A stretch of 37,791 nucleotides of DNA, taken from an uncultured bacterium. Lineage in GTDB: Bacteria; Bacteroidota; Bacteroidia; Sphingobacteriales; Sphingobacteriaceae. Made by a program: the position numbers and the translations under genes. This document shows, piece after piece, positions 11,987 through 17,485 of the stretch (positions are counted from its first letter, which is position 1; the number at the start of each line of letters is the position of its first letter). The stretch lies in assembly GCA_903951325.1 (NCBI GenBank), contig CAJBBN010000138.1, positions 1 through 37,791 of the forward strand. Direction: 5' to 3'. The notes under the pieces are model-generated. The model made no database searches. It was not told the origin of the DNA and saw nothing but the letters and a program-made list of their open reading frames with translations.

Positions 11987-12700
11987 TTAATCGTGAATAT
12001 TTGCTACTTTTAACAAGCCTGGAATATCAATGATTTGAATTTTTCTGCCCTCGAAAGATACTAGCTTCTTTGATTTAAATTCGGACAGTAAACGGATTGC
12101 AGTTTCTGTTGCAGTTCCAACTAAAGTAGCAATCTCTTCTCTAGAAAGGCTTACAGACATAGTAATCCCGTCTGGTTCTAGACCATACATTTCTTTTAAG
12201 AAAAGTAAAGATTCTGCCATTCGCTCTCTTACCGGTTTTTGTGCTAGGTGTAAAATAGACTCTTCTGCATGCTTTAAATTACTTGACAATAATTTAATGA
12301 GTTGAATAGAAAAATTTGAATCTTTTTCTATGAGGGATAAAATTACATTTTTAGGAATAAAACAAATAGAAGTGGTATCTATTGCGGTTGCCGAACTCGA
12401 ATATTTTTCGCCGGCAAGCATGGCCCTGTAACCAACTATATCACCTTCTTTTGCAAATCGAACAATTTGCTCTCTACCTTCATCTCCCATTTGGTGAATT
12501 TTTATTTTGCCAGTATTTACACAAAATATACCATGAGGATAGGCGCCTTCTGCAAATAATTGTTGCCCTTTTTCTAATGATTGGCACCATTTATTTTCAT
12601 TAATTATCTTTACTTCATCTGGTGCAATTTGACAGAAAATAGACTTATAACGAGCATGGCAATGTTCGCAATCGTGTTGTATATCTTCTTTTTTAGACAT
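11987..12700 (-). CDS. Crp/Fnr family regulator, likely Fe-S O2-sensing Fnr type; start revised from 12787 to ATG 12700
   Basis: cNMP-binding fold, C-terminal HTH LSREEIATLVGTATETAIRLLSEF; N-terminal C-x2-C-x8-C plus internal TTSICFIP Cys aligning with FNR Cys122; the track's N-terminal 29 aa are a non-homologous hydrophobic stretch. Confidence 0.88.
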   Translation of the reverse strand: MSKKEDIQHDCEHCHARYKSIFCQIAPDEVKIINENKWCQSLEKGQQLFAEGAYPHGIFCVNTGKIKIHQMGDEGREQIVRFAKEGDIVGYRAMLAGEKYSSSATAIDTTSICFIPKNVILSLIEKDSNFSIQLIKLLSSNLKHAEESILHLAQKPVRERMAESLLFLKEMYGLEPDGITMSVSLSREEIATLVGTATETAIRLLSEFKSKKLVSFEGRKIQIIDIPGLLKVANIHD

Positions 12701-12825
12701 GGTTTTTTGGAATAAAACTAAATTTAACAAAAAAAATAAGGTTATCAGATAAAAAAAAGGCTGAAAATTGATAAATGCCCCTAACAACCTTTTAAGGGTA
12801 ACAAATAATATTTGATTCTTTGATA

Positions 12826-14424
12826 TTAATTGATGATTATTTTTTTATGATACATTTCGTTACCAGATTTAACTTTTACAATATAGGTTCCTTTACCCAA
12901 TTCGCCCAAGGCTAGCGAACCTTGTGATGCCTTATCTTGATAAAGTAATTTACCAAGCATATCGTAAATATATACTTCGTATAAATTTACATTTCCTTGT
13001 TTTCCGGTAAATAAAATTTCAAAATTACCCTTACTAGGATTTGGGAAAATCACTAATTCTTTATTTTCAATTGTATTATTTTCGACTGAAGTTGAAATGG
13101 TACATTGCTTGAAACCATTATAAGTATTGGTGGTTACCCCACCAGTTGGGGAAGTGTATTTAAAAGTATATACACCATTGGTACTCCATTCGTATTCAAC
13201 CAAATAAGTTAAGCCCGCTAAAGTATAAGTTAAAGCATATCCATTTTGATTGGCATTAGCTACCAAGTTTGTAATCACCGCGCCTTTTAAAGGCGCGCCA
13301 GCTGGTCTAATAGAAGAAGCTTTTGATTGAGGAACAATTTGCAAATCTGCATCTTCTGTTACACTACCAACCATATTACCAATCATGTATGGCGCGGTTG
13401 CAGTTCCATGATAATGATAAACTCCATTGCTTGCATAATGACCATGATTTGCATCTAAGCTTTTCATATTTGATCCATCTGGTTCTAAGGTACCGTATAC
13501 CGCAAAACCATCAAGTGCATAAGCTATTGGATATGTTAAAGGAGAAGTGCTATATAAATGTAGTGGCGCAGTATGGTAATGGTAATCGTCTGCTCTGCCG
13601 CAATGACCGCCCCAATAATCTAATTGCCCATCTAAAAATGCATCGACACCAGTATTAGTATAAGGGTTAAATATAGCAACTCCATTTACGGCAATAGCTA
13701 CTGCACCTTTTAAAAAATGAAACTGGTTTACTGGAACTGGGTTTGCTGCAATTGATGGGTTCAAAGGTATACTCCAGGCATTAGTGCCAATATAACATTG
13801 AGGAATTGGAAATTGTTGCTGCCAACCTGTAATGCCTGTCATCATTCCATGTGATGGAATTCCTTTAGACTCCACCCTAAAATAAGTTGAATCCCAAAAT
13901 GTATTGACTGCTGGTTTGTAAAAAGTAAAAGCAGAATCTATGGTAAGCGGATTGGTTATTGTTTGAAAAGTTCTGATGGCCTTAGCCGTAAATCCTAAAA
14001 AGGAAACAATCATTAGGCAAACTAAAACTGGAATTATTTTGCTGTATTTATGCTTCTGTTGTAAATATATAAGCAAGAAGGTTAAGCTTAAAAAAAGAAT
14101 TAAAAATGGGTAAAAATTTGACTTTTCTTCATTAGCATTAGCGCTGTAGCTCCTTCTAGTATTCAGTTTCAATATATTGCTTGTTTTTTGTGCAATAAAC
14201 TGTTGGTTAGCAATCGAGAAGCTTTTTAAAGGGAAATGGGAGATTGTTCCATTTGAGTTTTCTAAGTAAACTTGCGTTCCTTTCAACATTAAAAATGAAC
14301 CTTGCACGCTTTCTCCTGAAACAGTCCAATGCTGATCAGGTCTATGTGGAAGATTTAAATCGTGCGCAGTTAAATTGTTTTGAAAACTTAACAAAAGGCA
14401 AAAGATGAATACAATTTTTCTCAT
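12826..14424 (-). CDS. YHYH domain protein with T9SS type A sorting domain and two internal TM segments
   Basis: DDYHYHTAPLHLY and GVYHYHGT motifs; C-terminal VIFPNPSKGNFEI...GTYIVKVKSGNEMYHKKIIIN. Confidence 0.85.
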   Translation of the reverse strand: MRKIVFIFCLLLSFQNNLTAHDLNLPHRPDQHWTVSGESVQGSFLMLKGTQVYLENSNGTISHFPLKSFSIANQQFIAQKTSNILKLNTRRSYSANANEEKSNFYPFLILFLSLTFLLIYLQQKHKYSKIIPVLVCLMIVSFLGFTAKAIRTFQTITNPLTIDSAFTFYKPAVNTFWDSTYFRVESKGIPSHGMMTGITGWQQQFPIPQCYIGTNAWSIPLNPSIAANPVPVNQFHFLKGAVAIAVNGVAIFNPYTNTGVDAFLDGQLDYWGGHCGRADDYHYHTAPLHLYSTSPLTYPIAYALDGFAVYGTLEPDGSNMKSLDANHGHYASNGVYHYHGTATAPYMIGNMVGSVTEDADLQIVPQSKASSIRPAGAPLKGAVITNLVANANQNGYALTYTLAGLTYLVEYEWSTNGVYTFKYTSPTGGVTTNTYNGFKQCTISTSVENNTIENKELVIFPNPSKGNFEILFTGKQGNVNLYEVYIYDMLGKLLYQDKASQGSLALGELGKGTYIVKVKSGNEMYHKKIIIN

Positions 14425-15770
14425 TAATGGCTTATTTTAATTTTTTCGATTTTACTGAAATTTTTACCCATCACTTTTATAAAATAAAAACCATCGTATA
14501 ATTTTCTGACATCAAAATAAGTAATCGTACTACCTTGTACTATTTTATCTGATTGAATAATTTTACCTTGAAGGTCTATTAATTCCAATTGCACGTCTTC
14601 GTTTTGTAAACCACCTAATTGAATGGCTACAAATTCTGTTGCAGGATTGGGCGATACAATGATGCTAGTTTTGATAGTATTGGCTATACCGGTGCTTGGC
14701 GAATAAGTAGTAACGGGCTCTGCAATGGTCGTTACTTTAGCCACTACCCTGCTTCCATAAAACGTAGGGCCAACTATATACGGATAAGCGGAGTTCCAAT
14801 TTTGATCTACTGTTGCGAAATAACAATAAGTGCCATTTGGGAATTCGGGGGTAATACAAAAACGGCCATTGTGTATATCTAAATAATCCGAATTGCTATC
14901 TAAAACAAATTCATAATCTTCTTTGAAATAACCTAATGGATAAGTTGTACTTACCGGAGGTCCAGCTGTAACAGTTGTTCCGTTTGCATATTGCGTACGC
15001 GTACTTATATTTCTGTATTGATAACTTGATTTCATCCTAACAATTCCACCAGTGCCATCCAAATTTTTATATCCATAAGCTCCATAAATTGGAAAGCCAT
15101 CGTAGGCAAAACCAATAAGTGGAGCATGCACATTGCTATCAATTAAATATAATCCATCGGCAACATATAAATTGCAAATGGTAGAAATTACAGAAAGGTC
15201 TAGGCTAAATGCACTCGGATTTTGATGGTGATGATAATTACCCATTGCTGGATGGCCTTTCGCACAATCAAAACCTATGCGCTCTGCAACAACAGCATCT
15301 CTATTCCAAACATTATCGCCCATGCCCCCAAGTGGCCCGCCTGCAAGTGCTCCAGTCGAAGATTTCCAAGATACACCATCTCTATAATCAAACAAAGCAA
15401 CTCCGTTAATAAATAAACCAATATTATTCGGAGTTGTGTTTACCGGATTTCCTGTATTTTTTACTGGATTCAATGGGAGTTTGAAAATAGCATTTTGACT
15501 GGTTGCAAGCGATGGATTACCATCTAAAAAAGGACCAGTTATATAAGATGGAATACCATTCGTTGCCACATAAACATTGGCAGTCGAATACTTTACACTC
15601 AATACATTTGCTAAGGTATTGTCGTTAATAGGTATGTAATTATTTTTCACATAATGTCTGCCCATAATACCAGTTGTATTTTGCAACCAGTTTAAAATTA
15701 CAGGATTAGTTTGGGCAAATGCACTGTGCAAGCCAACTATTAAAATTGATGTTAATACTATTTTTTTCAT
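14424..15770 (-). CDS. YHYH-family protein (YHHH variant) with T9SS sorting domain
   Basis: Signal peptide, GNYHHHQNP, GFAYDGFPIYGAYGY, C-terminal VSPNPATEFVAIQL...FYFIKVMGKNFSKIEKIKISH; TAATG coupling to the next gene. Confidence 0.8.
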   Translation of the reverse strand: MKKIVLTSILIVGLHSAFAQTNPVILNWLQNTTGIMGRHYVKNNYIPINDNTLANVLSVKYSTANVYVATNGIPSYITGPFLDGNPSLATSQNAIFKLPLNPVKNTGNPVNTTPNNIGLFINGVALFDYRDGVSWKSSTGALAGGPLGGMGDNVWNRDAVVAERIGFDCAKGHPAMGNYHHHQNPSAFSLDLSVISTICNLYVADGLYLIDSNVHAPLIGFAYDGFPIYGAYGYKNLDGTGGIVRMKSSYQYRNISTRTQYANGTTVTAGPPVSTTYPLGYFKEDYEFVLDSNSDYLDIHNGRFCITPEFPNGTYCYFATVDQNWNSAYPYIVGPTFYGSRVVAKVTTIAEPVTTYSPSTGIANTIKTSIIVSPNPATEFVAIQLGGLQNEDVQLELIDLQGKIIQSDKIVQGSTITYFDVRKLYDGFYFIKVMGKNFSKIEKIKISH

Positions 15771-15786
15771 GCTATTTAGACGCGGT

Positions 15787-16818
15787 TTATTCGTTTTTCC
15801 TTCGATTCAATAACAATAATTCTTTCGGAAAAGCCAATGCAGGATTAAACAAGAATTTTTGATCGGTAAGGGTAAGCAAAAAAGCCGTTAAATCTACCTT
15901 TTCCGCTTTATTTAACTTAATCTTAATACGCGTATGATTGCTTGTAAGAAGTTCAATATTTTCGTAATGATGAAGCACCTCCTGCAATTTACGCACACGG
16001 CCATCGTGCATATAAGGAAATGTAAAGGCAATATTTCTAAGGGTAGGTACTTTAAAACAGATGGAATCTTTTGCACTTTGCGTAATGCGCATGCGCCCCA
16101 TGTCTTTTAAATTTGAATCGATAGGTAAATTATTTTGCTCAAATTTTAAATTGGTAAATAGCGGCTCAGTATGACATGTTGCGCAATTTTTTTTAAAAAT
16201 ATGGTAGCCTTTTTTTTCTTGTGCAGTAAAAGTAGCACTCCCGTTTTTCACACTATCATATTTAGCGCTTGCAGAAACCATTTGCAATAAAAACTGTGTG
16301 ATTGATTTTAAAAAACGATCTGTAGAAATTATCTCATCGCCATAGGCTTGTTTAAATAAATTTTTATAAAAAACGCTGCGATTTAACTTTTCTAAAACAT
16401 GATTTAAATTCTCATCCATTTCTAGGTGATTGGTAAGGGGAGCTAAGGCTTGCATCTCTAAATTATTAATTGCTCCATCCCACATAAAATTTTCGTGCCA
16501 TGCTAAATTCATAAGCCCAGGTGCATTCCGAAAGCCAATACGATCGGCTATTCCATGGCTTAAGGCATGGTCGACATGCGTAAATGCGGTATAATTACTA
16601 TGACAACTTGCGCAAGAAATACTACTGTCTTTAGATAATATGGGATCGTAAAATAAAGCGCGACCAATATTTATTTTATTTGAATCAAAAGGGTTATTTT
16701 TAAAATTATATTTTGGTTTTGGGAAATTTTCTGGTTTTTTAAACTCAGTTTCGGAAGGCGAAATAAATGCAATAGAAAAAACCGATAATAAAATAAAAAA
16801 AACAACGCCCTTATTCAT
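15787..16818 (-). CDS. Di-haem cytochrome c peroxidase family protein (MbnH/MauG-like)
   Basis: Two CxxCH motifs (CASCHS, CATCHT), RNAPGLMNLAWHENFMWDG, PTLRNIAFTFPYMHDGR. Confidence 0.9.
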   Translation of the reverse strand: MNKGVVFFILLSVFSIAFISPSETEFKKPENFPKPKYNFKNNPFDSNKINIGRALFYDPILSKDSSISCASCHSNYTAFTHVDHALSHGIADRIGFRNAPGLMNLAWHENFMWDGAINNLEMQALAPLTNHLEMDENLNHVLEKLNRSVFYKNLFKQAYGDEIISTDRFLKSITQFLLQMVSASAKYDSVKNGSATFTAQEKKGYHIFKKNCATCHTEPLFTNLKFEQNNLPIDSNLKDMGRMRITQSAKDSICFKVPTLRNIAFTFPYMHDGRVRKLQEVLHHYENIELLTSNHTRIKIKLNKAEKVDLTAFLLTLTDQKFLFNPALAFPKELLLLNRRKNE

Positions 16819-17485
16819 TTGATAAATTTTGAACTTTAGAGCAAGTCGCGTTTTCTGAAAGTAATTTTGCTAATTGCACTGCTTTAAGCTGTGGAGACAT
16901 TATTTCAAATTGTTTTTGCGCTAAACAATATTGTAACATGGGCAAAAAATTAAAACTCAAAATATATTTATTATTCGGAAAAACTTCGAAGGAATTAGTT
17001 TGAATAGCATTTAACTTTCCAGCATAGCCACCAACATGATATTGAAATGGCTGTTGAACTTTAGTATTTAAAACCCCTTCTAATTTAAAATTGATATATC
17101 CACTCTGCCAAGCCCAATACATTCCTTTTCGTGGGTCTAAGTCGCCGGTTAAAATTCCTGCAACATTGGTGTTACTATCCACCCCAATATTAAAAGATAC
17201 ACGATTATAAACTTGATTTTTAGGTATATTAAATTGGATTGGATTGGGGTCGAGCAGATCAATCAAATGCGCTTGGTTAGTGTCTACAAATACCAATTGC
17301 GCTTGATTATAAAATTTAAAATTAGTTAAATAGATGGCGCATTTAGAGATTTTAAGGGAATCATTGAGGTATAGCTGATCAAAATCCGTTTGCAAAAAGA
17401 AAGTTGTTTTTTGTGATTGTGCAGGAGCCTCTTTATATATAGCAGCACAGCATAAAAAAAGTAAAATTAGTTTCTTAAAGTACAT
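16811..17485 (-). CDS. MbnP-family protein
   Basis: Signal peptide; IGVDSNTNVAGILTGDLDPRKGMYWAWQSGYINFKLEG signature; overlaps the MbnH-like gene by 8 bp. Confidence 0.85.
   Translation of the reverse strand: MYFKKLILLFLCCAAIYKEAPAQSQKTTFFLQTDFDQLYLNDSLKISKCAIYLTNFKFYNQAQLVFVDTNQAHLIDLLDPNPIQFNIPKNQVYNRVSFNIGVDSNTNVAGILTGDLDPRKGMYWAWQSGYINFKLEGVLNTKVQQPFQYHVGGYAGKLNAIQTNSFEVFPNNKYILSFNFLPMLQYCLAQKQFEIMSPQLKAVQLAKLLSENATCSKVQNLSNE

Follow-up and report, generated by a model that had tools for sequence, protein, structure and literature searches.

The locus described here raises the question of why genes for secreted YHYH-family proteins should lie in one tight operon with a pair resembling MbnP and its di-haem partner MbnH, and whether the group handles copper. 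It is found on contig CAJBBN010000138.1 (37,791 nucleotides, analysed whole and hereafter called the window) from an uncultured member of the Sphingobacteriaceae. Many families of the class share the MbnP, MbnH and YHYH1 genes as a linked group, and we give an even chance to the reading that they form a conserved Bacteroidota copper-handling cassette, including an MbnH-matured MbnP and secreted YHYH metalloproteins. The recurrence of these three genes, often behind a metal-sensing regulator, suggests an undescribed form of surface copper handling. MbnP/MbnH pairs, YHYH as a named domain and cargo of the type IX secretion system (T9SS) are all known already. No link between YHYH and MbnP was found in the open literature searched, nor was the YHYH-MbnP/MbnH combination, its breadth or its metal-sensor context, although this does not prove absence.

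Gene organization and family assignment

The cassette in the window comprises four genes:

16811..17485, minus strand: MbnP-like protein, 224 amino acids; PF20243; signal peptide by eye; W124-A-W126, M122, H150 and M196
15787..16818, minus strand: MbnH/MauG-like di-haem enzyme, 343 amino acids; PF03150; C69-C72H73, C212-C215H216 and Tyr285 at the axial-ligand position
14424..15770, minus strand: YHYH1, a YHHH-type YHYH protein with a T9SS tail, 448 amino acids; PF14240 and PF18962; His triad H173, H180 and H182
12826..14424, minus strand: YHYH2, 532 amino acids; PF14240 and PF18962; H274/Y281HYH and H329/Y336HYH; two hydrophobic stretches towards the N-terminus; T9SS tail

The initial annotation described four packed, co-directional minus-strand genes, and the open reading frame (ORF) coordinates bear this out, with an 8-bp overlap between MbnP and MbnH, a 16-bp gap between MbnH and YHYH1 and a 1-bp overlap of the TAATG type between YHYH1 and YHYH2. 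Its family assignments hold for all four genes, each of which exceeds the curated Pfam cut-off: MbnP scores 114 bits against 27 (PF20243), the CCP_MauG match of MbnH 169 against 25.6 (PF03150), and YHYH1 and YHYH2 196 and 51 bits against 25 (PF14240). The motif variants, YHHH in YHYH1 and YHYH in YHYH2, are also as claimed. Both YHYH proteins are predicted to be T9SS cargo, given C-terminal sorting domains that score 45 bits in YHYH1 and 50 bits in YHYH2 (PF18962, cut-off 27) and also pass the cut-off of TIGR04183. The NCBIfam cut-offs are reached neither by MbnH (TIGR04039, 193 bits, cut-off 363) nor by MbnP (TIGR04052, 30 bits, equivalog cut-off 140), and the two are therefore considered divergent members of their families.

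YHYH1 and YHYH2 are the only YHYH proteins detected in the source genome, which has four further MbnP matches outside the cassette, two further CCP_MauG genes, each sharing a contig with an MbnP, and further T9SS tail-region matches. In congeners, YHYH1 accompanies the MbnP-MbnH pair in all five cases, and YHYH2 lies downstream in the four whose contigs extend far enough. Because the four genes are kept in congeners at 78-98% protein identity, the arrangement is not an accident of assembly.

Co-occurrence across Bacteroidota

A sample of 295 genomes was drawn evenly from the class, of which 113 encode YHYH and 218 encode MbnP. All ORFs at the 133 YHYH loci in this sample were scanned with profiles built from the window proteins, and MbnH adjoins YHYH in 60 of the 133, many of the loci being truncated by contig ends. 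A scan of GTDB genomes added 80 named loci, a set biased towards close relatives of YHYH1, which were treated in the same way. After de-duplication, 123 long YHYH1 loci were available, 72 of them bordered on each side by 4 kb or more (fully flanked).

Within 4 kb and on the same strand, MbnH is present at 63 of the 72 fully flanked loci and MbnP at 61, and most upstream gaps are shorter than 100 bp. For MbnH, about 0.3 loci of 72 would be expected by chance, given about 3.05 CCP_MauG genes per genome and genomes of approximately 3.4 Mb. The link proposed in the initial annotation is consequently not restricted to this lineage, and extends over many families of the class. MbnP, MbnH and YHYH are all encoded on one strand at 104 distinct loci, in the MbnP-MbnH-YHYH order of the window at 88 and in the order YHYH-MbnP-MbnH at 16; since two gene orders occur, the association has survived rearrangement.

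MbnP and MbnH

The MbnP residues M122, W124, W126 and H150 are invariant in alignments of 28 and of 49 homologues, and are also kept in a long MbnP type. The window-type proteins have an additional invariant methionine in a C-terminal MSP motif, which the long type does not. In a Foldseek search with the AlphaFold model (predicted local distance difference test score, pLDDT, 91), the top six matches are chains of 7l6g, the Methylosinus trichosporium MbnP, with E ~1e-6, probability 1.00, a TM-score of 0.55-0.64 normalised by the query and 13-15% identity. This structure was reached by the fold search only, as a PDB sequence-profile search with the MbnP alignments gave no matches. The Pfam score, the Met/WxW/His motif and the 7l6g fold all agree on the identity of this protein. 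MbnP reportedly binds Cu(I) through a histidine, a methionine, solvent and a kynurenine derived from the first tryptophan of the WxW motif.

For MbnH, the CCP_MauG profile, the two CxxCH motifs, Y285 and the overlap with the MbnP gene support the identity given in the initial annotation. None of 22 homologues departs from the two CxxCH motifs or from Y285, and the best PDB match of the MbnH profile is 6e1c, with its tyrosine in register, whereas the peroxidase 1iqc has a methionine there. Tyrosine thus probably replaces methionine as the axial haem ligand in the window protein, judging by sequence position.

YHYH proteins

YHYH1 is modelled with confidence (pLDDT 88.7, predicted TM-score 0.90), but a fold search against the PDB found no match better than E 1.7. 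The significant structural matches are proteins in a viral library, many annotated as YHYH or phage structural proteins. Among 39 bacterial YHYH1 rows, H173, H180 and H182 are 100% conserved, compared to 7-10% in 40 phage rows, a difference to which local misalignment may contribute; D168, Y179, H215, D224, D285 and D298 are kept at 97-100% in bacterial and phage rows alike. The phage rows were recovered via two other peptide patterns, and phage YHYH proteins outside this sample may differ. In these homologues (viral contigs L275-L354), the core residues are kept and the three YHYH-motif histidines are mostly gone, which suggests a structural role or one other than metal binding there. Many tyrosine and tryptophan residues are invariant in YHYH1; W135 is not retained in the phage homologues.

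YHYH2 and its relatives contain two H-x-YHYH motifs, the residues of which are 97-100% conserved in 36 proteins. The N-terminus (residues ~25-155; gene 12826-14424) features a signal-like stretch and then a region that by eye resembles SHD1 (W...G..V.L...G), for which no Pfam match was obtained. Two hydrophobic segments follow, the second ending in AKA and resembling an internal signal-peptidase site, and cleavage there could release the YHYH and T9SS portion into the periplasm.

The link between YHYH2 and the cassette is lineage-dependent, and most YHYH2 relatives are found elsewhere. Short relatives (L070, L166-L178, L185, L187 and L193) belong to a second conserved set with the core YHYH2-MORN-SCO1/SenC. 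Several of these loci carry sigma factor, small protein and sensor genes upstream. Long relatives accompany Lcl_C, metallophosphoesterase and sometimes HupE/UreJ genes, and a minority are near YHYH1.

Metal-sensing and copper-related neighbours

Neighbouring genes were typed by clustering nearby ORFs, followed by Pfam scans. A recurrent upstream set encodes an extracytoplasmic function (ECF) sigma factor, a small membrane protein and a CnrX-like periplasmic protein of the Metal_resist/LTXXQ type. The small membrane protein gives no confident Pfam match and is a putative anti-sigma factor on the basis of its position. Within 4 kb, the ECF sigma factor and the Metal_resist-type sensor are each present at 35 of the 72 fully flanked loci, and the highest-scoring sensor is a strong match (E 6e-12). 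No enrichment in methionine and histidine, a possible hint of copper, was found in the N-terminal region of the sensors (7.4% vs 6.8%). Unlike in about half of the fully flanked relatives, this module is absent from the window. Multicopper oxidases occur within 4 kb at 9 of the 72 loci, where approximately 0.06 would be expected (0.73 such domains per genome), and a T9SS tail was confirmed in the single one scanned. The initial annotation had proposed a copper-handling system that feeds a cbb3 oxidase; the abundance of metal sensors and copper proteins nearby favours the former part, while the cbb3 part is not supported (vide infra).

An arylsulfotransferase-like (ASST) cluster was also noted (L118, L158 and L162). 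Its gene lies between YHYH1 and MbnP in L162, where the product has a T9SS tail by Pfam, and in L118.

Proposed role of the cassette

In the copper-handling reading, periplasmic MbnH is inferred to oxidise W124, the first tryptophan of the MbnP WxW motif, to kynurenine, which would create a Cu(I) site on MbnP with Met122 and/or His150. MbnP would then carry or buffer copper within the cell envelope. YHYH1, and in the window also YHYH2, would leave via the T9SS to become a surface or secreted metalloprotein, with the invariant YHYH His triads predicted to bind metal, most likely copper. This copper may be captured outside the cell or handed over by MbnP, the order of transfer being conjectural. 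In many relatives, expression is probably governed by the ECF sigma/anti-sigma/CnrX-type module, answering to periplasmic metal. Direct observations cover the gene content and its conservation, the sequence motifs, the fold of MbnP and, for YHYH1, the failure to match any PDB structure. A more specific version holds that the YHYH proteins represent a structurally new class of secreted copper protein, with MbnP/MbnH as its kynurenine-copper carrier, and form a T9SS-dependent copper relay on the outer surface; it is put forward only tentatively and is rather unlikely as it stands.

Several points weigh against the copper-handling reading. Copper as the metal of the YHYH proteins is a prediction. 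The metal that is sensed cannot be read from the sensor family, several other members of the sensor cluster match Metal_resist weakly, and CnrX itself senses cobalt and nickel. Nine of the 72 long YHYH1 loci are without MbnH, and at five of those nine the 4 kb on either side also holds no multicopper oxidase, sigma factor or sensor. Pairwise distances co-vary strongly between MbnP and MbnH (r 0.83), but less between YHYH1 and MbnP or MbnH (0.55 and 0.41, or 0.28 and 0.18 when the comparison is confined to one gene order), which suggests that YHYH1 is a functional partner rather than a tight, constant physical one. Finally, neighbouring sulfatase and phosphoesterase genes would suit a role in extracellular hydrolysis.

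Alternative explanations

That last point leads to the best surviving alternative, which we regard as possible but improbable: the YHYH proteins may work outside the cell as hydrolases or adhesins that require a metal (probably zinc) and act upon polymers alongside the neighbouring sulfatase and phosphoesterase, the link with MbnP/MbnH having another cause such as co-regulation. An earlier study took a His triad and an Asp in phage YHYH domains as grounds to predict a Zn-dependent tail hydrolase (PMC7824862), although that role is itself a prediction only. Hydrolase genes do occur within such operons. In the congeneric loci L376 and L378, a longer overlapping operon encodes MbnP, MbnH, YHYH1, a T9SS-tailed sulfatase, YHYH2 and Lcl_C, with one additional T9SS protein between YHYH2 and Lcl_C in L376, and the sulfatase and Lcl_C genes have apparently dropped out of the window cassette. 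A T9SS-tailed metallophosphoesterase also adjoins YHYH2 relatives. However, hydrolase partners are a minority, and MbnP/MbnH and metal-sensor modules dominate the neighbourhoods, where multicopper oxidase and SCO1 are also found.

It is less probable still that YHYH1 is a second substrate of MbnH, which would oxidise an aromatic residue of YHYH1 ahead of secretion and so generate a cofactor or metal site. Modification of partner proteins is an established activity of MauG-type enzymes, the YHYH1 gene directly adjoins mbnH, and the protein is rich in invariant tyrosine and tryptophan. However, YHYH1-MbnH co-variation is weak beside that of MbnP and MbnH, intact YHYH1 is encoded at loci without a nearby MbnH, and W135 is lost in phage homologues.

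A third possibility, suggested in the initial annotation, is that copper passes from the cassette by way of CcoI to the cbb3 oxidase beside it. The genes that flank the cassette in the window include:

11987..12787, minus strand: Crp/Fnr-type regulator, context, downstream of YHYH2; PF00027 and PF13545
9520..11931, minus strand: CcoI-type copper P-type ATPase, context, outside the conserved cassette; PF00122, PF12156 and PF00403
9115-9525: small bacterial-type globin, opposite the ccoI gene; PF01152
17613-19766: SulP transporter-carbonic anhydrase fusion, divergent from MbnP

In this genus, the fnr-ccoI-ccoNO block usually lies directly after the cassette on the same strand, and the adjacency of the Crp/Fnr regulator is held in all congeners except one. 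That congener, G299 (locus L378), keeps MbnP-MbnH-YHYH1-sulfatase-YHYH2-Lcl_C intact although its locus lacks the CcoI/CcoNO/Fnr block, and only a distant CcoNO match (24% identity) was obtained from the genome (83% complete). No CcoNO was found near any other screened locus, so the cbb3 adjacency is confined to one genus; CcoI gave a single weak match near the other loci, at the YHYH2-only locus L189, and the genome that is sister to that of L195 has YHYH2 and CcoI together on another contig with their order preserved. The one-genus adjacency and the G299 cassette without the block lead us to reject cbb3 copper supply as a general role, and delivery to the adjacent oxidase is very unlikely as an explanation of the cassette.

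Regulatory scans of the window gave three FNR boxes (TTGAN6TCAA), none near MbnP and no more than expected by chance, and no clear excess of Bacteroidetes-type promoters over shuffled sequence. The globin is retained in congeners, including one without the CcoI/CcoNO block. The SulP-carbonic anhydrase fusion is a variable neighbour, found in L375, L377 and L378 but not beside MbnP in L376 and L379.

Least probable of all is an ordinary periplasmic peroxidase in a copper-free oxidative stress operon, as cytochrome c peroxidases lead the single-sequence PDB matches of the di-haem protein but all 22 members have Tyr, not Met, at the axial position, the best profile match is 6e1c and the adjoining MbnP has an intact Met/WxW/His set.

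Comparison with known systems

The CnrYXH module shares with the cassettes of many relatives, though not with that of the window, the upstream order of sigma factor, small transmembrane protein and Metal_resist-like sensor. With phage tail YHYH proteins (PF14240) the common element is the domain: the 40 sampled phage homologues mostly replace H173/H180/H182 and keep the remaining core, whereas the bacterial YHYH1 and YHYH2 are predicted T9SS cargo. The domain is widespread in bacteria and phages, has been reported in diatoms (PMC11992049), and is here given a definite partner in the genome and a metal to test for. If YHYH binds copper, its presence on phage tails and in diatoms will be easier to interpret; if it does not, the strong MbnP/MbnH link requires another reason. 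YHYH1, with no fold match among solved structures, is a candidate for structure determination.

In methanotrophs, the copper sites of CorA and MopE contain a kynurenine formed from Trp; both proteins are repressed by copper and have an adjacent MauG-like gene (PMC3912023). CorA/CorB and MopE/SACCP resemble the window pair in that the gene of a c-type di-haem partner adjoins that of a copper protein, a likely one in the window, and in the conversion of Trp to kynurenine and the role in handling copper, both of which are predicted for the window MbnP. However, CorA and MopE use two histidines and kynurenine, unlike the window MbnP, and neither is among its Pfam, PDB-sequence or significant Foldseek matches. 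MbnPH-like genes are also known in copper-homeostasis operons (PMC9426467).

A further close parallel is the MbnP/MbnH pair of M. trichosporium and its relatives (MbnP, 7l6g; di-haem enzyme, 6e1c), with which the window shares an adjacent gene pair, the MbnP fold, the WxW, Met and His residues and a di-haem enzyme with a predicted Tyr ligand. The window pair differs in its low identity, its scores under the NCBIfam cut-offs and its link to YHYH T9SS cargo. If the copper-handling reading is correct, kynurenine-type copper sites would extend from methanotrophs to a secretion-linked system of the Bacteroidota.

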